A DNA stretch of 64,000 nucleotides from Deltaproteobacteria bacterium. Its GTDB lineage: Bacteria; Myxococcota; Myxococcia; Myxococcales; JAHFDP01. The notes below the pieces were generated by a model. That model saw only the letters and a program-made list of their open reading frames with translations, made no database searches and had not been told where the DNA came from. A program made the translations under genes and the position numbers. Of this stretch, positions 2,956-40,824 are shown piece by piece; within the stretch, counting starts at the first letter, position 1; every line of letters begins with the position of its first letter. The DNA is taken from the NCBI GenBank assembly GCA_023248955.1, contig JAHFDP010000003.1, positions 1 to 64,000 on the forward strand, read 5' to 3'.

Positions 2956-4059
2956 CTACTGCCCGGGGTACGCCACCACCGAGGCATCCGTGAAGTTCAC
3001 CGCGGAAAAGTCGTAGTCGCTGCTGTTGCTGGACACGGATGGCACCGGCCCGAACAACGAGACATCGCAAGCCGCCGCGCCGGATGTATCTGCCGCGTCG
3101 CTACCGTGCACCGTAGCGCCCGCCGAATCCTCCAACTTCATCATCCAGTACCCCTCCGCACTCGCGTCCGCCTTGTCGATCGACGAGCAGGTCACGCCGA
3201 TGAATTTGTTGCCGGCCGTAATCTGTCCACCGGTGGCCAGCGCATCGGTTCGTCCGATTCGCCCATTGGCGGAGGCCGCCCAGCGAGCGACGATCTGCAC
3301 GGTGGCGAGCTGATGCGTTGGGTTGGCGGGGCACAGCAGGTCCATCGTCTTCTCGAACTTGAAGCTGCCGCCGGCGCCCTTGGTACGCGCGAAGACGTAA
3401 TTGCCATTGCGCGGTGCCGCTGACTTGTCGCTATCTGGAACGAAGTTGGTGAGCGTGATTTGGATCTTTTTCTTGAGGCTGTTCACCTCGAAGATCTCAG
3501 CGATTTGGCCCTTCGCTTTTTCGTTCGTCACCACCGTGCCCAGCGCGGTGAGGTCGAGGTTGATCGTTCCGTTCCCCGCGTGTGTTTGGCCGGCAATGCG
3601 CGTGAATGTTCCGGAAGCGAATTGAACGAACGAGGTGTCCGCGGCCGTGGCTGCTTTTACGTCGAACTCCAACGTGAACTGATCACCGCTCTTCGTGAGA
3701 ACAGCTTTGTAGGTGAGGTTGTTGGTGGTGCGGACCCACGTGTGCGAGTTCGTGGTCGTCGCGTCCGGACGTTTATCGACAAAGCGATCGAGCCGCGCAA
3801 AGACCTTGAGGACGTGGTGGTTGAGCATCTTGATCGCTTCGCGCGTGCGCTGAAAAAGATGCGGATGGCAATCGTTGGCCCCGAGGGCTTGTGTGTCGAC
3901 AGTGTCGCTCGTGTCCATGTCGAGCGCCATTGTCTCGGATGTCGGTGCGGCATCGGCGTATTCATCGCCGGAGGTGGTGCTGCTTGTCGTGCCGCCGCCA
4001 CAAGCGCCGAACAGAAGTGCGCCGGTGGCCAGTGTTGCGAAAGTGGATTTCGTTTTCAT
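2956..4059 (-). CDS. Secreted lipoprotein of unknown function
   Basis: 367-aa protein with a lipoprotein signal peptide: basic MKTK start, hydrophobic stretch and lipobox LFGAC with the lipidated Cys near residue 20, followed by a Gly/Thr/Ser-rich linker. The rest is probably beta-rich and extracytoplasmic; I recognise no catalytic motif. ATG 4059 is chosen over an upstream in-frame ATG (4098) because it gives a clean signal peptide and has AGGAGA 7 nt upstream. Such lipoproteins are frequent in myxobacteria. It converges on the MATE gene. Confidence 0.8.
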   Translation of the reverse strand: MKTKSTFATLATGALLFGACGGGTTSSTTSGDEYADAAPTSETMALDMDTSDTVDTQALGANDCHPHLFQRTREAIKMLNHHVLKVFARLDRFVDKRPDATTTNSHTWVRTTNNLTYKAVLTKSGDQFTLEFDVKAATAADTSFVQFASGTFTRIAGQTHAGNGTINLDLTALGTVVTNEKAKGQIAEIFEVNSLKKKIQITLTNFVPDSDKSAAPRNGNYVFARTKGAGGSFKFEKTMDLLCPANPTHQLATVQIVARWAASANGRIGRTDALATGGQITAGNKFIGVTCSSIDKADASAEGYWMMKLEDSAGATVHGSDAADTSGAAACDVSLFGPVPSVSSNSSDYDFSAVNFTDASVVAYPGQ

Positions 4060-10402: not shown

Positions 10403-12256
10403 ATGTCTGACCATGCGGCGTCCGCGCCGACGCGCGATTTTTCGTCCATTCGATCCATTCTCGCCACCGACTGCGGATCGACCACCACCAAGGCGATCCT
10501 GATCGAAAAAAATGACGCCGGCGAATTTCGCTTGGTCACGCGCGGCGAGGCGCCCACCACCGTTGAAGCGCCGTTCGAAGACGTCACGCGCGGCGTGCTG
10601 AACGCCATCGCCGAAGTCGAAGAACTCCGCGGGCGAAAATTTCTCTCGGGCGAAAAAATGATCACGCCGCAAATCGGTGAGGTCGGCGCCGACATCTACA
10701 TTTCCACCAGCTCGGCGGGTGGCGGTTTGCAGATGGTTGTCACCGGTGTGGTGAAGAGCATGTCCGCCGAGAGTGCCGCGCGCGCATCGTTGTCAGCGGG
10801 CGCCATTGTGATGGACACGCTTGCCTCGAATGACGAGCGACTGGCGCACGAAAAGATCGAACGCATCCGCCAGTTGCGGCCGGACATGATTCTTCTCTCG
10901 GGGGGCGTGGATGGCGGCACCGTGTCTCACGTGGTGGCGCTTGCGGAGTTGCTCTCGGCGGCCAATCCGAAGCCGCGGCTCGGCATCGGATTTAATTTGC
11001 CGGTCATCTACGCGGGCAACAAAGAAGCTGCCGGCGAAGTGCAGAAAATTCTCGCCGACAAAGTGAGTTTGCAAACGGTGCCCAACTTGCGGCCGGTGTT
11101 GGAGCAGGAAAATCTCGGCCCCGCGCGCGATGCCATTCACGATCTTTTTCTCGAGCACGTGATGCAGCAGGCGCCCGGTTACAAAAAATTAATTTCCTGG
11201 ACCGATGCGCCGATCATGCCCACGCCCGGCGCGGTGGGGCTCATCATTCAGAGCATCGCCAAGCGGCAAAACATTTCGGTGGTGGGCGTCGACATCGGCG
11301 GCGCGACGACGGACGTTTTTAGTGTGTTCGGTGCGCGGAAGAGTTTCAACCGCACGGTCTCGGCCAATCTGGGCATGAGCTATTCAGTATCGAACGTGCT
11401 GGCCGAAGCGGGTCTCGACAACATTCTGCGCTGGGTTCCGTTCGACATCGATCAGGCTGAGCTGCGCAACCGCATCGGCAACAAAATGATTCGGCCGACC
11501 ACGATTCCGCAGGGCTTTCGGGAGCTGCAAATCGAGCAGGCCATCAGCCGCGAAGCGTTGCGGCTGGCGTTTGTGCAGCACAAAGCCTTCGCGGTTTCGC
11601 TCAAGGGCGTGCAGAAGGAGCGCACGATTTCCGATGCCTTTGCGCAGAGCGCTTCCGACACGCTCGTGAACATGATGGAGCTGTCGATGATCGTTGGGTC
11701 GGGTGGCGTCTTGTCGCACGCGCCGCGGCGATCGCAGTCGATGATGATGCTCATCGATGCGTTTGCGCCGGAGGGCGTGACGGAGCTGGTGGTCGATTCG
11801 ATTTTCATGATGCCGCACCTCGGTGTGCTTTCGACGGTGCACGAAGCGGCGGCAACCGAAGTGTTCGACAAGGATTGTCTGATTCGTCTCGGCACCTGCC
11901 TGGCGCCGGTGCTCGCCAAGGGGAAAGAAAAAGTTGGCGAAGAAATTCTGCGCGCGTCGCTGACGTTGCCGGACGGTACGCGCAAAGACGTGGCGCTCAA
12001 GGTCGGCGAGGTGCTGCTCGTGGAAGTGCCGTACGTGGAGGGAAAAAAGACGCGCGCGATTCTGACGCCAAGTAAACGCTACGACGTCGGCAATGGCGCG
12101 GGTGTGCCGGTGGAGACCGAGATGAACGGTGGCGTGACGGGAATCGTGTTCGATGGCCGCGGCCGTCCGCTGGTGATGCCGAGCGAAGCCGGAGAGCGGG
12201 TGCGGCGACTCACCGCGTGGAATGCGGCGCTGAACGTTTACGGAGAGGCGCGCTAA
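10403..12256 (+). CDS. GlmL/MutL-family ASKHA protein (glutamate mutase accessory family)
   Basis: 617-aa member of the MutL/GlmL family known beside B12-dependent glutamate mutase. Two actin-like ATPase phosphate loops are visible: ATDCGSTTTKAILIE at the N-terminus and VVGVDIGGATTDVFSVFG in the middle, with GSGGVLSHAP later. Such proteins are thought to act as chaperones or reactivases, but the biochemical role is unsettled. No cobalamin mutase subunit (DxHxxG) is seen in this window, so it is an orphan here. Its stop overlaps the next gene's start (TAATG), so the pair is coupled. Confidence 0.85.
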   Translation: MSDHAASAPTRDFSSIRSILATDCGSTTTKAILIEKNDAGEFRLVTRGEAPTTVEAPFEDVTRGVLNAIAEVEELRGRKFLSGEKMITPQIGEVGADIYISTSSAGGGLQMVVTGVVKSMSAESAARASLSAGAIVMDTLASNDERLAHEKIERIRQLRPDMILLSGGVDGGTVSHVVALAELLSAANPKPRLGIGFNLPVIYAGNKEAAGEVQKILADKVSLQTVPNLRPVLEQENLGPARDAIHDLFLEHVMQQAPGYKKLISWTDAPIMPTPGAVGLIIQSIAKRQNISVVGVDIGGATTDVFSVFGARKSFNRTVSANLGMSYSVSNVLAEAGLDNILRWVPFDIDQAELRNRIGNKMIRPTTIPQGFRELQIEQAISREALRLAFVQHKAFAVSLKGVQKERTISDAFAQSASDTLVNMMELSMIVGSGGVLSHAPRRSQSMMMLIDAFAPEGVTELVVDSIFMMPHLGVLSTVHEAAATEVFDKDCLIRLGTCLAPVLAKGKEKVGEEILRASLTLPDGTRKDVALKVGEVLLVEVPYVEGKKTRAILTPSKRYDVGNGAGVPVETEMNGGVTGIVFDGRGRPLVMPSEAGERVRRLTAWNAALNVYGEAR

Positions 12257-34622: not shown

Positions 34623-35858
34623 CTACGGTTCGTAATACTTGAAGGTTTTGCCGGCGTAGTTGCGCAGCACCAGCTCTTTGCCGTCGTGCGACACCACGTA
34701 GTTCGGCGAGAGCGGAATTTTCCCGCCGCCGCCGGGCGCGTCGCAGACGTAGTGCGGTACCGCGAGCCCGCTGGTCCAGCCGCGCAGCTTCTCGATGATG
34801 TCGAGCCCCGTCGCGATCGGCGTGCGAAAATGGCTGATGCCCTGCGAAAGATCGCACTGGTAAATGTAGTAGGGCCGCACGCGCATCAGGAGCAGCTTGT
34901 GGTTGAGATCCTTGACCAGCTTTGGGTCATCATTCACGCCCTTGAGCAGCACCATCTGGTTGCCGATCACGCAGCCCGCGTCCGCGAGCTTGCGGCACGC
35001 TTCGTAGGCTTCGGCGGTGCACTCCTTGGGATGGTTGAAGTGCGTGTTGACGAAGACCGGATGGTGGTGGCTCACCATGTAGGCGAAGTCGTCGGTGACG
35101 CGCTGCGGGAGCGTCACCAGGTTGCGCGTGCCGAGCCGGAAAATCTCCACGTGCGGAATCGCGCGCAGGCGGCCGAGGATGTAGTCGAGCCGGTCGTCGG
35201 AGAGCGTCAGCGGGTCGCCACCGGAGATGACGATGTCGCGCACCTCGGGATGCGCCGCAATATATTCAAGCGATTGTTCGAGCTGGTCCTTCGCGGCCGC
35301 GGTGGTGGGGTCCGACACTTTGCGCTTGCGCGTGCAGTGGCGGCAGTACACGGGACAGTTGTGGGTTGTGTAGAAGAGCACGCGATCGGGATAGCGATGC
35401 GTGATGCCTGGCACCGGCATGTCGCGCTCTTCCGCGAGCGGATCTTCCAAGTCGGTCTTCAGAATATTTAGCTCGCCGCCCTTGGGCACCGACTGCAAAC
35501 GAATCGGGCAATCGGGATCCTCGCGATCCATCAGGTTCGCGTAGTAGGGCGTGATGCCGACGTGAAACATCTCGTGCGATTTGGTGTAGGCGTCGCGCTC
35601 GTCCTGCGTGACGTTGAGCACCTTCTCCATGCCGGCAAGGTTGGTGATGCGCTCGCGCTGCTGCCAACGCCAATCGTTCCATTTCGCGTCGGGTACATCG
35701 GACCACGGACCCTTCGACGTCGGCGGAAATCGGTTCAAGATGTGCGGCCGAATCGGACGGCGCGGAACTTTTTCTTGCGACGTGGTCGACGCGGAGATGG
35801 GCTCCAGGGCGGGTTCGGTGAGTTCGCTCGAGCCGTTCGGAACGATGGGCAGGGCCAT
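34623..35858 (-). CDS. Lysine 2,3-aminomutase family radical SAM enzyme (copy 1)
   Basis: 411 aa. SAM cluster Cys at 168, 172 and 175 (CPVYCRHC), RYPDRVLFYTTHN before it, and the PLP Lys in PGGGGK near the C-terminus. Length and the C-terminal extension fit lysine 2,3-aminomutase (KamA/AblA) rather than EpmB, which is shorter. It would turn L-lysine into L-beta-lysine, in lysine breakdown or beta-lysine osmolyte synthesis; the acetyltransferase AblB is not nearby. ATG 35858 has GGAGA upstream. Divergent from copy 2. Confidence 0.9.
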   Translation of the reverse strand: MALPIVPNGSSELTEPALEPISASTTSQEKVPRRPIRPHILNRFPPTSKGPWSDVPDAKWNDWRWQQRERITNLAGMEKVLNVTQDERDAYTKSHEMFHVGITPYYANLMDREDPDCPIRLQSVPKGGELNILKTDLEDPLAEERDMPVPGITHRYPDRVLFYTTHNCPVYCRHCTRKRKVSDPTTAAAKDQLEQSLEYIAAHPEVRDIVISGGDPLTLSDDRLDYILGRLRAIPHVEIFRLGTRNLVTLPQRVTDDFAYMVSHHHPVFVNTHFNHPKECTAEAYEACRKLADAGCVIGNQMVLLKGVNDDPKLVKDLNHKLLLMRVRPYYIYQCDLSQGISHFRTPIATGLDIIEKLRGWTSGLAVPHYVCDAPGGGGKIPLSPNYVVSHDGKELVLRNYAGKTFKYYEP

Positions 35859-35951
35859 GGTGTCTCCGTCAGAGTGCCGTCGAATGGACGACATTAACAT
35901 GGTGCCCCTTTCGGCAAGGAAACACGCCGACTAGGATTGCGCGCCTCACGC

Positions 35952-37193
35952 ATGCCGTCCATCGCTCCACAATACGGAAACTGGCGCGCCTCTTTCCCCG
36001 AGGCGACCGAATCCGACTGGCTTGATTGGCGTTGGCAGCAGCGGCACCTCCTCCGGACCGAAGCGGATCTCGCGCGCATGGTTGCGCTCACCGATGACGA
36101 GCGCGCCGGCATTCGCGAAACGGCCGCGCGGTTCCGGCTCGGGATCACGCCCTACTATGCAAGTCTGATGGACGCCGCGTCGCCGTTTTGTCCGGTGCGT
36201 ATGCAGGCGATCCCGGTGCGCGCCGAAGCCCGTGTTAGCGAAGGCGAGTTGCGCGATCCGTTGGGCGAGGACCTCCACCGTCCCACCGCGGCCATCGTGC
36301 ACAAATATCCCGACCGCGTGCTTTTCTTGGCGCTTGATCAGTGCCCCGTTTATTGTCGTCACTGCACGCGGCGGCGCATCACGCACGGCGACGAAGGTGC
36401 GCTGGGGCGTGACGCCATCGCGGACGCGCTCGGTTATGTGCGGGCGCACCACGAAGTGCGCGACGTGCTCATCTCGGGTGGCGATCCGCTGGTGCTCACC
36501 GATGCGCGGCTCGGCGAAATTCTGGCGGCGCTTCGTGCCATCCCGCACGTCGAGATTATCCGCATTGGTACGCGCGCGCCGGTGGTGTTGCCGATGCGTG
36601 TCACCGCCGAGCTGTGCGTGCTGCTTCGCAAACATGCGCCGGTTTTCATGGTTACTCATTTCAATCACCCGAAGGAGCTGACGCCGGAAGCGACCGCCGC
36701 TTGCGAGCGTCTCGTGGACGCGGGCATTCCGGTGGAAAATCAGACGGTGCTGCTTCGTCGCGTGAACTCCCGTGCGCGGACGATTCGCGATCTCAACCAG
36801 CGGCTGCTGCGCCACCGCGTGCGGCCCTACTATTTGCACCAGGCCGACGTTGCCGAGGGTATCGAGCATTTGCGCACGCCGATTCGCGCGGGCCTCGAGA
36901 TCCTCGAGCAGCTGCGCGGCTGGACGAGTGGGCTGGCGGTGCCGCACCTGGCTGTCGATCTGCCGGGCGGCGGTGGCAAGGTGACGCTGCAACCGCACTA
37001 CGCGCTGGAGTTCGGTGAACGGTCGACGCTGTTCCGGTCTTACAAAGGTGATCGTATCGAATACCCCGAGCCCGTCGAAACCGATTGCGCTTGTCCGTAC
37101 GACGATGTGTATTACAAAAATGATCGGACCGATCACGCGGCGCCACCGCCGCGACGCGTGCGGTTTTCCGTCATGAAGGAGAGCTCTCCGTGA
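35952..37193 (+). CDS. Lysine 2,3-aminomutase family radical SAM enzyme (copy 2)
   Basis: 413 aa, clearly paralogous to the divergent gene: cluster Cys 131, 135, 138 (CPVYCRHC), VRPYYLHQADVAEGIEH and PLP Lys in PGGGGK. It lacks the first ~35 residues of copy 1 and has its own C-terminus with DCACPYDDVYY. Substrate may be lysine or another amino acid such as glutamate. ATG 35952 is chosen, with TTG 35937 possible. The stop overlaps the dedA start (GTGA). Confidence 0.88.
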   Translation: MPSIAPQYGNWRASFPEATESDWLDWRWQQRHLLRTEADLARMVALTDDERAGIRETAARFRLGITPYYASLMDAASPFCPVRMQAIPVRAEARVSEGELRDPLGEDLHRPTAAIVHKYPDRVLFLALDQCPVYCRHCTRRRITHGDEGALGRDAIADALGYVRAHHEVRDVLISGGDPLVLTDARLGEILAALRAIPHVEIIRIGTRAPVVLPMRVTAELCVLLRKHAPVFMVTHFNHPKELTPEATAACERLVDAGIPVENQTVLLRRVNSRARTIRDLNQRLLRHRVRPYYLHQADVAEGIEHLRTPIRAGLEILEQLRGWTSGLAVPHLAVDLPGGGGKVTLQPHYALEFGERSTLFRSYKGDRIEYPEPVETDCACPYDDVYYKNDRTDHAAPPPRRVRFSVMKESSP

Positions 37194-38495: not shown

Positions 38496-38894
38496 GTGGC
38501 ACGCATTCGATCGTCGACGCGGCTCAGTGGCCGCGAACAGATGGTGGATCTCTCACCGCGCGCCATCGCAATCGAGGATGCCAACGGCATGCCGCACCAG
38601 ATGACCGCGACGGGGCAGTTTACGTTTCTGACGAGTGGCCGTTGCCTGGTGGTCGTGAATGTCCACATCGACGGAAAGGTCTCGACTGGGAAACACGGGT
38701 GCAGTTACCGCATCGAGGGCGACCGTCTCACGCTCGGTGAGGAAGCGGGACTGGATCAGGGCGCCCGCAACGTTTTTCGCGTCTCGCAAGAGAGCGAGCG
38801 GCTGGTGCTGGAGGAGATTTACGAGGAGGCGCAGAGCGTGAAATTCGATCGCAGCGGGCATGAACGGGTGGTGTTGCAGCGGCGGACGGACTAG
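38496..38894 (+). CDS. Hypothetical protein
   Basis: 132 aa from GTG 38496 (ATG 38541 is a later choice). The pattern MTATGQFTFLTSGRC, KHGCSYRIEGDRLTL, LVLEEIYEEAQSVKFDRSG is that of a small beta-barrel such as a lipocalin-like domain, but there is no confident match and no signal peptide, so it may be a 5'-truncated gene. Its TAG is the first three bases of an 18-bp inverted repeat. The 190 bp before it hold no gene that I can see. Confidence 0.5.
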   Translation: MARIRSSTRLSGREQMVDLSPRAIAIEDANGMPHQMTATGQFTFLTSGRCLVVVNVHIDGKVSTGKHGCSYRIEGDRLTLGEEAGLDQGARNVFRVSQESERLVLEEIYEEAQSVKFDRSGHERVVLQRRTD

Positions 38895-39000
38895 ACAAAA
38901 TGGTTGGACTCGTCTCCCGCTGTGGCTCTACGCGCCTTGGCGAATTCCAAGTCGCGCAACCCACGTTACGCGTGAACTTCGGGTCCAACCATTTTGTCTA
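38892..39000. repeat. 18-bp perfect inverted repeat with 73-bp loop
   Basis: TAGACAAAATGGTTGGAC (38892-38909) and its exact reverse complement (38983-39000) fill the gap between two convergent stops. The inner 73 bp include a smaller palindrome (CTTGGCGAATTCCAAG). It could be a bidirectional transcription stop or a small transposon derivative with terminal inverted repeats starting TA. Confidence 0.8.
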
Positions 39001-39003
39001 ACG

Positions 39004-40023
39004 CTACGGCTCGCGCAAGCCACGTTGCACCATGAACGCAACGGCGGGCACCATGCGAACGGTTTCCACGCGCGTGCGCCGATGCGCGCGGGACCAGACG
39101 CGGACGACTTCGTCCACGAATCCCTGGCCCACGGCCTCGACGTTCTTGAAGTCTAGCGTCACGTGTTGAAATTTTTCGAGGCCATGCATCAAACGTTTTG
39201 CTTCCGAGCGAGAAACGAAACGCGTGCCGTATTCGAAGAGATGGACGCGGATCTTCGTCTTGCTGAATTCGAAATCGTCCGTGTAGGCGTCGAAAATTTC
39301 CTTCAGCGTTTTGCGCGGACGCAGTGCTACCTCAATCCGGGCGCGCGTTCCGGCGCGTGGCGGTGATGCGGCAACAGTTTGATCGTCGCGTACGTTGTCG
39401 ACTTTCCAGGTGAGTCCGTTGCTCTCGAGCTCGAAGGCATTGACGGCCTTCGAGGAGAAAAAAATTCCCTGACCCGTGTGCGCGTCGGGTTGTGTCGTTA
39501 CTTTTCCTTTGGTTAGCTGTTGGAGCGCGTCCAGGAGCGAGGCCAGACGAAAGGTTTTCCGCACGTTTTCGAAAGCACCAACCCCCCAATCGATGATTTC
39601 AAAGACGATCAGGTTGGGGTGTTCATCGAGCCGAATTTCGACTTTCTCGGATCCAGAATGATCGATGGCGTTGTTGAGCAGCTCGCTGAACGCAAACACC
39701 ACCGTCTCTCTCGCGGCGCGTGAAGCAGCGGCAAGGTTTGGAATTGTCGTCTCGAGTTGGCGGAAGACCATGTCTTCGGAGAGGCCTTCGCGTGTGTAGA
39801 CGTGGCGCTTCGCTTTGCGGGTTGGCGTCGTCGCGTTCGTGTAGCGGGTGGACGGCCCGCGGCCTTCAACGACGAGGACACCGCTGCCGACGAGCGCGCG
39901 AAGTTGCTTGTGCGCCGCTTGGCGTGTGGAGCGTGCGTGCCGAGCGACCTCTTGACTGGTTGTCGATTCACTTTCCAAGAGGAGCCCGAGGATTACTTCG
40001 CGGATGGGCTGCCTTTTTTTCAT
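39004..40023 (-). CDS. HTH + GHKL ATPase + DUF4325 (STAS-like) regulator
   Basis: 339 aa. Residues 1-65 are a winged-helix DNA-binding domain (SQEVARHARSTRQAAHKQLRALVGSGVL); about 85-230 a histidine-kinase-type ATPase with N box ELLNNAIDHS (114-123) and DWGVG (145-149) but no phosphoacceptor domain; about 255-335 the STAS-like DUF4325 (SRSEAKRLMHGLEKFQHVTL, then DFKNVEAVGQGFVDEVVRVW). The set recalls an anti-sigma-factor ATPase and STAS antagonist merged with a DNA-binding head. ATG 40023 is downstream of three phased repeats, likely its own operator. Confidence 0.85.
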   Translation of the reverse strand: MKKRQPIREVILGLLLESESTTSQEVARHARSTRQAAHKQLRALVGSGVLVVEGRGPSTRYTNATTPTRKAKRHVYTREGLSEDMVFRQLETTIPNLAAASRAARETVVFAFSELLNNAIDHSGSEKVEIRLDEHPNLIVFEIIDWGVGAFENVRKTFRLASLLDALQQLTKGKVTTQPDAHTGQGIFFSSKAVNAFELESNGLTWKVDNVRDDQTVAASPPRAGTRARIEVALRPRKTLKEIFDAYTDDFEFSKTKIRVHLFEYGTRFVSRSEAKRLMHGLEKFQHVTLDFKNVEAVGQGFVDEVVRVWSRAHRRTRVETVRMVPAVAFMVQRGLREP

Positions 40024-40030
40024 TCCTTTA

Positions 40031-40060
40031 TTGTAAACTAATCGTAAACTTATTGTAACC
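40031..40060. promoter_or_regulatory. Three 11-bp phased direct repeats (TTGTAAAC-like)
   Basis: TTGTAAAC (40031), TCGTAAAC (40042) and TTGTAACC (40053) are spaced by exactly 11 bp in an AT-rich patch 8 bp upstream of the DUF4325 gene, 66 bp from phoB. The one-turn phasing is what a repeated DNA-binding domain would read; autoregulation is the simplest idea. Confidence 0.6.
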
Positions 40061-40125: not shown

Positions 40126-40824
40126 GTGAGCACCATCCTCGTCATCGAAGACGAAGCCGATCTCGCGCGGCTGCTTGACTACAACCTCCAGCAAGCGGGC
40201 TTGCGTGCCGTGCTCGCCAACACCGGCGCAGCAGGTCTCGCGCAAGCGGCGCGCGAAAAACCCGATCTGGTCATACTTGACATTATGTTGCCTGACACCT
40301 CCGGACTGGAGGTGTGCCGCGCGCTTCGCAGCCGCACGTTAACCAAGGACGTTCCGATTCTGATGCTCACCGCGAAGGGCGAGGAGATCGATCGCGTGCT
40401 CGGATTCGAATTGGGCGCCGACGACTATGTGGTGAAGCCCTTCAGCATGCGCGAGCTGGTGCTGCGCGTGCGGGCGCTGCTCGGGCGAAGCGTGCGCGCC
40501 ACGCCGGCCGCGGAAACCGGGCCGCTCAAACTTGGCTGCATCGAGGTCGATCGCACCGCGCACCGCGTGGTGATCGACGGCCGCGAAGTGACACTCACGG
40601 CGCTGGAATTTCGTCTGCTTACTACGCTCATGGAACGCGCCGGTCGCGTGCTCTCGCGCGATCAGCTCCTCGAAGACGTGTGGGACATCACCGCCGATGT
40701 GGAGACACGAACCGTCGACACGCACGTCAAGCGACTGCGCGAAAAGCTTGGGGCCGCGCGCGACTATTTGGAGACGTTGCGCGGCGTTGGCTACCGCATG
40801 CGCGATCCGGCGGGTTCCGCTTAA
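40126..40824 (+). CDS. phoB: PhoB-family response regulator
   Basis: 232 aa: receiver with phospho-acceptor Asp52 (LVILDIMLP), Thr and Lys (LTAKGEE, VVKPF), and an OmpR/PhoB winged helix (LTALEFRLLTTLMERAGRVL, VDTHVKRLREKLG). Placed at the head of a phosphate locus and coupled to phoR, so it most likely binds the Pho box upstream of the porin-pst operon. GTG 40126 start. Confidence 0.92.
   Translation: MSTILVIEDEADLARLLDYNLQQAGLRAVLANTGAAGLAQAAREKPDLVILDIMLPDTSGLEVCRALRSRTLTKDVPILMLTAKGEEIDRVLGFELGADDYVVKPFSMRELVLRVRALLGRSVRATPAAETGPLKLGCIEVDRTAHRVVIDGREVTLTALEFRLLTTLMERAGRVLSRDQLLEDVWDITADVETRTVDTHVKRLREKLGAARDYLETLRGVGYRMRDPAGSA

Follow-up and report, generated by a model that had tools for sequence, protein, structure and literature searches.

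How might a protein use a GHKL ATPase and a STAS-like domain when both are joined, behind a DNA-binding head, in a single chain? Partner switching between such domains is understood as phosphotransfer between separate proteins, and the question is raised here by a 339-aa protein encoded in a stretch of 64,000 nucleotides (the window, meaning all of the DNA that was analysed; Table 1). A first-pass annotation, made from the sequence alone, had proposed that the protein could sense ATP or a ligand and switch its own DNA binding by intramolecular partner exchange, an idea that leans on a sound ATP site in homologues and on a head with a DNA-binding fold. Our preferred reading, to which we give a probability of about 0.55, is that the protein may be a one-component autorepressor, whose DNA binding would be set by a nucleotide-dependent contact between the GHKL and STAS-like domains in cis, without phosphotransfer.

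Table 1. Features of the locus, with positions in the window
Feature	Position	Strand	Basis
HTH-GHKL-STAS-like (DUF4325) gene, 339 aa; ATG at 40023, stop codon ends at 39004	39004..40023	-	ORF call, Pfam, AlphaFold2
Winged helix-turn-helix head (residues 6-66), with T-R-Q at 33-35 as its recognition-helix motif	39826..40008	-	sub-threshold Pfam HTH, structure matches to AntR/CadC/AspA, helix/operator table
SpoIIAB-like GHKL ATPase, residues 67-235	39319..39825	-	Pfam, SpoIIAB structure match, invariant residues
DUF4325 / STAS-like domain, residues 255-337 (Pfam match 274-323)	39013..39261	-	Pfam, STAS fold
G299-Q300-G301, where unfused DUF4325/STAS proteins have their phosphoacceptor Ser	39121..39129	-	alignment
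Predicted operator: three repeats GTTACAATAA / AGTTTACGATTA / AGTTTACAATAA in an 11-bp register, just before the start codon	40028..40060	-	sequence, arrays in relatives
Predicted promoter, -35 GTTACA / 18 nt / -10 TACAAT, covered by operator copies	40030..40059	-	sequence
Divergent neighbour, OmpR/PhoB-type response regulator (context only)	40126..40824	+	ORF, Pfam

Three domains in one chain

The winged helix, the SpoIIAB-like GHKL domain and DUF4325 are indeed joined in one chain, in the ORF where the first-pass annotation had placed them, as Pfam, the AlphaFold2 model and structure matches indicate. HATPase_c_2 covers residues 99-202 (E 3.1e-8, passing the Pfam cut-off) and DUF4325 (PF14213) residues 274-323 (E 1.7e-10, 40.9 bits against a cut-off of 23), while HTH models match residues 6-66 below their cut-offs (HTH_20, E 2.1e-4; SoFic-like_C, E 2.8e-5). 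The AlphaFold2 model, built on an alignment of 108 sequences, has a mean pLDDT of 94.9 and a pTM of 0.84. Within it, residues 5-66 resemble winged helices of the ArsR/CadC/AspA type (AntR, CadC and AspA, Z 9-10), and residues 67-235 superpose on SpoIIAB (1til) with Z 15.4 and 2.2 A over 134 residues. When DUF4325 was modelled by itself (pLDDT 84.8), its structure matches were nearly all STAS domains, the best being RsbS (6jhk, Z 8.1), RsfB (8ih8, 7.8) and SpoIIAA (1h4y, 7.6); the Foldseek matches were weaker (best probability 0.99 at E 0.03). Neither CapS (9Z71) nor VapS-VapC (9Z7O) was among the structure matches, but the structures compared run only to April 2026, and nothing follows from their absence. 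Judged by this model, DUF4325 is a STAS fold. The annotation had also described the HATPase as one without a phosphoacceptor His, and this too is borne out, since no HisKA-type domain appears among the Pfam matches of the protein up to E 10; the kinase encoded in its neighbourhood does show such a domain.

Not supported is the suggestion, implicit in the annotation, that the fusion is novel. In all, 108 aligned sequences, that of the window included, show this architecture, which is therefore not due to chance; the HTH-GHKL-DUF4325 fusion is a common, widely distributed single chain. The domains stand in this order in nearly all relatives, although the alignment of many actinobacterial members begins only at about residue 60-70, and the N-terminal start of the window protein falls at about the same residue as in relatives. 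No NCBIfam family covers the protein, PADLOC gave only weak matches to it (best E 1.1e-3), and PDB sequence searches returned no full-length relative of it and no match to an 85-aa piece of an unfused DUF4325 protein. Our literature search found no study of the fused architecture, and DUF4325 itself turned up in two papers, once in a table of each; in the part of one paper cited here, a DUF4325 'ATPase' is tabulated among the bacteria-like genes of the fungus Rhizophagus irregularis (PMC5982333). The Pfam entry PF14213 is the same C-terminal domain and stands as a domain of unknown function.

The GHKL domain carries its motifs in full (E114xxxN118, D145xG147xG149, K172GKxTT, H182xGxG186 and G225T226). 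Invariant in all 108 sequences are N118, H122, D145, G147, G149, H182, G184, G186, G225, S271, R272, R277, D291, Q300 and F302, and the catalytic E114 is Glu in 106. Because the ATP-site residues N118, D145, G147, G149, G184, G186 and G225 are among them, the ATP site is not degenerate in homologues. K172GKxTT and H182 are further conserved features, located in the lid. Alignment A2 left out nine loci that were duplicates or fragments (L019, L131, L129, L105, L120, L125, L022, L091 and L123).

Short repeats in the promoter of the gene

The repeats before the start codon of the window gene are TTtACrAT-like and overlie the predicted -35 and -10; AGTTTACRATWA is found in two copies in the window, against 0.05 expected. 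As only six bases separate the -10 from the ATG, the mRNA is likely to be leaderless. What is new here is that most members of the family have an array of short repeats in their own promoter. When upstream regions were compared by eye, short repeats preceded almost every relative. In 68 of 93 family promoters, though not in the other 25, a 9-mer occurs at least three times in the 110 bp before the gene. Among control promoters taken from these same loci the figure is 92 of 653, and among block shuffles 34 of 279. The same criterion picks out 11 of 12 later-fetched loci, with the statistic, which needs no predefined motif, having been devised after those 12 promoters had been seen. At least two copies of TTKACRA occur in 49 of 93 family promoters, the same ones on which the motif was defined, against 19 of 648 controls, and in only 4 of the 12 later-fetched promoters, the others carrying different repeats such as TCCTTTAAGAAA. 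Control promoters and neighbour genes were called by longest-ORF heuristics.

The spacing of the repeats corresponds to whole helix turns, so that the sites are helically phased: adjacent direct copies of TTKACRA lie 11 bp apart in 23 and 20-23 bp apart in 27 of 61 cases, and convergent copies peak at 32-34 bp (15/27). Moreover, the type of site goes with the type of recognition helix. In the [ST]RQ class, two or more copies of TTKACRAT are found in 22 of 46 promoters and of TTKWCAACT in 2 of 46; for the R[ATV]Y-type class these numbers are 0 and 14 of 23. The [PA]AT class has GAGGTGAT in 3/3 and the L[NT]T class has at least two copies of AGTTAA in 3/4. Helix class changes only about three times on the tree. 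Once corrected for phylogeny, a test of the link between helix and operator therefore has no power (median p = 1 with 2-3 independent pairs), and kinship alone could explain the association. With its winged-helix fold and these recurrent sites, the head looks like the DNA-binding domain that the annotation took it for, and it appears to bind the repeated sites in its own promoter.

The sense of this regulation would most likely be repression rather than activation, as the predicted operator copies cover the -35 and -10 and as TTKWCR itself serves as the -35 hexamer ahead of a spaced -10 in 25 of 93 family promoters, against 7 of 465 shuffles.

A solitary gene with a patchy distribution

Relatives are scattered. 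Within the phylum of the window, a match at E <= 1e-10 is present in 8 of 195 genomes, among them the one the window comes from, and an alignment-based scan of the genome collection found at least 492 encoding stretches, of which 80 loci were kept. These fall in Patescibacteria, Omnitrophota, Actinomycetota, Chloroflexota, Planctomycetota, Thermodesulfobacteriota, Pseudomonadota and other phyla, with Microbacterium and Agromyces among the genera, and alignment-based scanning further gave 29 viral or proviral contigs. Scans of genome and viral contigs with a single protein recovered zero relatives where the alignment-based scans succeeded, and tblastn, run with two queries on each set, gave no match in plasmids (72,556 records) or phages (50,697 records). 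On the tree, phylum labels change 34 times, with a minimum of 28; the patchy pattern is compatible with horizontal transfer without proving it, as MAGs are involved.

No conserved gene partner recurs among up to 8 flanking genes per locus. The largest cluster of flanking genes covers 6 loci (ABC transporters by eye), and among 132 immediate neighbours of 80-700 aa no family was matched by more than 2. Of 82 next downstream genes, 45 share the strand of the family gene and 20 do so at a distance of no more than 50 bp, so co-transcription is possible in a minority. Proviral contigs carry the gene singly, amid late genes, in places that by eye are moron-like, with tail-like genes around it at two loci (L106, L112) and terminase-like genes beside it at two others (L124, L126). 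The overall picture, as far as sequence can draw it, is of a solitary, probably self-regulating gene, usually an orphan. Being solitary, patchily distributed and carried on proviruses, it is a candidate for a stress or defence function of the sort that surveys based on gene neighbourhood would overlook.

Another possibility is that the protein is a GHL-type ATP-operated clamp and itself the effector, the gene being a solitary one for defence or exclusion, with the HTH only silencing it until it is needed. An orphan gene with its own promoter in moron-like proviral places would suit such a role, as would the extra conserved K172GKxTT and H182 in the lid. In addition, phrog_3364 is matched by 3 of 8 members and the Ren-like exclusion family phrog_142 by 2, although the latter match may stem from the HTH alone. 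Against this, no nuclease, toxin or membrane part was recognised in the protein, and we consider the idea doubtful.

Some neighbours deserve mention in their own right. Fic-like proteins are encoded near two relatives (L038, 1146-2195(-); L079, 4700-5785), and SoFic is the PADLOC match of 2 of the 132 immediate neighbours. The Fic-like protein of L038 has a C-terminal winged helix of the same kind, and its start is preceded by paired TTTACAAT sites, a hint that the combination of HTH and operator could be a transferable autoregulatory module. At L069, the start of a second ORF (10455-10610) resembles the family HTH (48% over 60 aa); it has a TTGACAAT pair of its own nearby and is separated from the full gene by 4.5 kb. 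In the window, two divergent radical-SAM ORFs (34623-35900(-) and 35937-37193(+)) share a CPVYCRHCTR motif and are lysine 2,3-aminomutase-like by eye.

Direct repeats in the flanks

Strong direct repeats between the 400-bp flanks were found by z-score in 18 of 100 relatives and 11 of 418 control genes, with the repeat-rich locus L021 supplying 1 of the relatives and 4 of the 11 controls; by raw score the numbers are 16/100 and 7/418. Inverted flank repeats are not comparably enriched (5/100 against 13/418). Some of the direct repeats are operator copies (L030, L052, L066), others are the C-terminal end of the neighbouring gene, present on both sides (L095, L098, L054), and at L063 the repeat is the end of the family gene itself. 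The unit measures about 1.1-1.3 kb. Such duplications look like the trace of a cassette insertion or a tandem duplication. L092 is also among the loci with flanking direct repeats, and the window gene has no flanking direct repeat of this kind.

It is tempting to speculate on a widespread single-gene element that moves horizontally, whose protein would be both its own repressor and its own ATP-driven output: a GHKL kinase fused to its STAS partner, its phospho-site erased, and turned into a nucleotide clamp. The gene would travel on a cassette of about 1.1-1.3 kb, with copies of the ends of adjacent genes left as direct duplications at its flanks. We offer this tentatively and think it unlikely.

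Two further repeats were seen. At L185 (G261:C72), positions 2255-2488 and 3404-3637 form a 234-bp direct repeat (96.6%) of the 3' end of the family gene, and between the full gene copy and the repeated 3' end lies a toxin-like ORF (DUF4258-like by eye). In the window, a 109-bp MITE-like element (38892-39000) with 21-bp terminal inverted repeats (TAGACAAAATGGTTGGAC...) abuts the stop codon of the gene, and its arms have 12 matches on eight contigs of the window genome.

Sites beyond the own locus

In 35 whole genomes taken together there are 91 paired sites, against 23 for the reversed control pattern. The gene's own locus accounts for 46 of the 91 and its own promoter for 38, in 19 of the 35 loci; the own loci make up 0.37 Mb of about 113 Mb and yet take half of all pairs. 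The 45 pairs outside the own locus still exceed the 23 control pairs, so a small regulon is possible. They are what would favour a regulator of a distant regulon, for which autoregulation is incidental. We find this distinctly unlikely, given the concentration of pairs in the own loci and the window genome, which has just 3 pairs, one of them its own and one of the other two inside an ORF.

Loss of the phosphoacceptor position

The annotation had suggested looking for a conserved Ser/Thr in the STAS-like domain, and here the family departs from its kin. At position 301, the phosphoacceptor position, the fused proteins have Gly in 61, Ala in 44 and Ser in 3 of 108 sequences, whereas unfused DUF4325 proteins have Ser immediately before the conserved F/W in 13 of 16, the remaining 3 having Ala there and Ser one or two residues earlier. 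The 16 were counted after eight rows had been dropped: L161, L178, L187, L190, L192 and L193 are short ORFs that show the fused-type motif and are probably fragments, L146 is unclear, and in L147 the motif is unreadable; L183 is the same place as L188. With Gly or Ala in 105 of 108, partner exchange driven by phosphorylation at that site is unsupported. The idea of intramolecular exchange thus survives in part: its phospho-Ser form falls away, and switching controlled by nucleotide or ligand would be the best reading.

One could argue that phosphorylation has only moved, with the GHKL domain modifying its own STAS-like domain elsewhere, likeliest at S271 or S273, and so controlling DNA binding. 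The catalytic Glu/Asn are retained, and the two serines (SRS motif) are kept in 108/108 and 107/108. However, the SpoIIAA/CapS-type acceptor opens the helix after the central strand, which is position 301, while S271-S273 stand at the start of a different helix (272-279 in the AlphaFold2 model), which makes such a switch quite improbable.

Even less probable, in our view, is a kinase acting in trans, with a CapS/VapS-like STAS protein encoded at another place in the genome as its substrate. The SpoIIAB/RsbW fold and the unfused GHKL/DUF4325 pairs of the same phylum speak for it; the lack of a recurrent neighbour, among up to 8 flanking genes per locus and 132 immediate neighbours, speaks against it, and so does the window genome, in which a PF14213 search, covering the DUF4325 family alone among STAS families, returned a single DUF4325, the match at 39052-39204 in the fused gene itself.

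Finally, it is highly improbable that the window repeats are boxes of the divergent PhoB/OmpR-type regulator, which starts 102 bp away: Pho boxes are 11-bp repeats, a period common to both, but similar arrays occur in relatives for which no recurrent neighbour of this type was found, and we rank this reading low for that reason.

A proposed one-component switch

Returning to the autorepressor, we propose that the winged helix would bind the short sites that are arrayed over its own promoter in phase with the helix of the DNA, that the GHKL domain, with its intact site, probably binds ATP, and that the C-terminal STAS-like domain would serve as its built-in partner. Because the phospho-Ser became Gly or Ala, we infer that GHKL and STAS form a non-phosphorylatable complex, like that of SpoIIAB with the Ser58-to-Ala form of SpoIIAA (1TID). 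The nucleotide state, or a ligand in the groove between GHKL and STAS, and not phosphotransfer, would then change oligomerisation and free the operator, and the first effect of this release would be increased synthesis of the protein itself. By analogy with CapK, our guess for the trigger would be ssDNA or DNA damage, and the boldest guess for the final output is an effector role of the protein itself.

A family that extends from Patescibacteria to Myxococcota and that has kept the ATP site while dropping the phospho-Ser offers a natural way to find out what nucleotide binding can achieve by itself. Moreover, the sites listed by motif and helix class are immediate DNA targets for binding or reporter assays.

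Relation to known systems

Unfused DUF4325 proteins lie beside separate GHKL-like ORFs at L143, L144, L145, L175, L176, L186, L189 and L194, with the GHKL parts of L186 and L194 identified by motif only, with no Pfam match. At L145, DUF4325 is followed by an HTH, which is the CapS layout; GHKL and DUF4325 followed by a PIN ORF, the VapKSC layout, are seen at L189 (PF01850, 1.2e-11) and, by eye and with no Pfam match, at L191. These layouts tie DUF4325 to the STAS domains of CapS and VapS by architecture. Two other arrangements were noted. On one contig (L191; 365-1199 and 4176-5225), about 3 kb separates a VapS-like DUF4325 ORF, which comes with an ORF that by eye is PIN-like, from a gene of the fused family. 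At L186, L188, L194, L176 and L148, a DUF4325 ORF with an SSFLEE-type motif has a putative membrane ORF downstream; at L186, L194 and L176 this DUF4325 ORF sits behind a GHKL-motif ORF, possibly as another CapKS/VapKS-like system.

The nearest published system, as far as the portion of the literature drawn on here goes, is CapK/CapS (EMBO J 2026, PMC13373217; the statements that follow refer to part of that paper, in which the name DUF4325 is not used). The two share a GHKL kinase-type domain, a STAS domain and a winged HTH that represses, or in our case would repress, its own promoter, and CapK too has HTH, STAS and GHKL in one chain. CapK is an ssDNA-activated kinase, with ssDNA predicted to bind between its STAS and GHKL. 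It acts on Ser54 in the STAS of a second protein, the separate repressor CapS, a DNA-binding autorepressor under the control of the GHKL kinase, which once phosphorylated leaves its own promoter (PMC13373217). The order of domains differs (HTH-STAS-GHKL in CapK, HTH-GHKL-STAS in the window protein), and deleting the HTH of CapK had no effect that was seen, whereas the HTH of the window family has predicted sites of its own. Likewise, capS follows capK in 443 of 443 cases (PMC13373217), while the window family appears to lack a second protein, with no recurrent neighbour and one DUF4325 in the window genome. CapS itself is a STAS-wHTH protein with a conserved phospho-Ser; the window protein has its winged helix at the N-terminus and has lost the phospho-Ser.

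VapKSC, in the part of the same paper cited here, is similar in its GHKL/STAS pair but consists of three genes, releases a PIN toxin and has a STAS that keeps a phosphorylatable Ser/Thr (PMC13373217). SpoIIAB-SpoIIAA and RsbW-RsbV share with the window protein the fold of both domains and the ExxxN and DxGxG motifs; they differ in being separate proteins with a sigma-factor output, phospho-Ser58 and no HTH, and where their partner STAS offers a phosphoacceptor Ser, the cis STAS has G or A. Sensor histidine kinases have a HisKA-type phosphoacceptor domain, which the window protein does without. Finally, ArsR/MarR-like autorepressors combine a winged HTH with sites over their own promoter, as the window protein is predicted to do, and what would set the window protein apart from them is its sensor, a GHKL ATPase together with a STAS-like domain.
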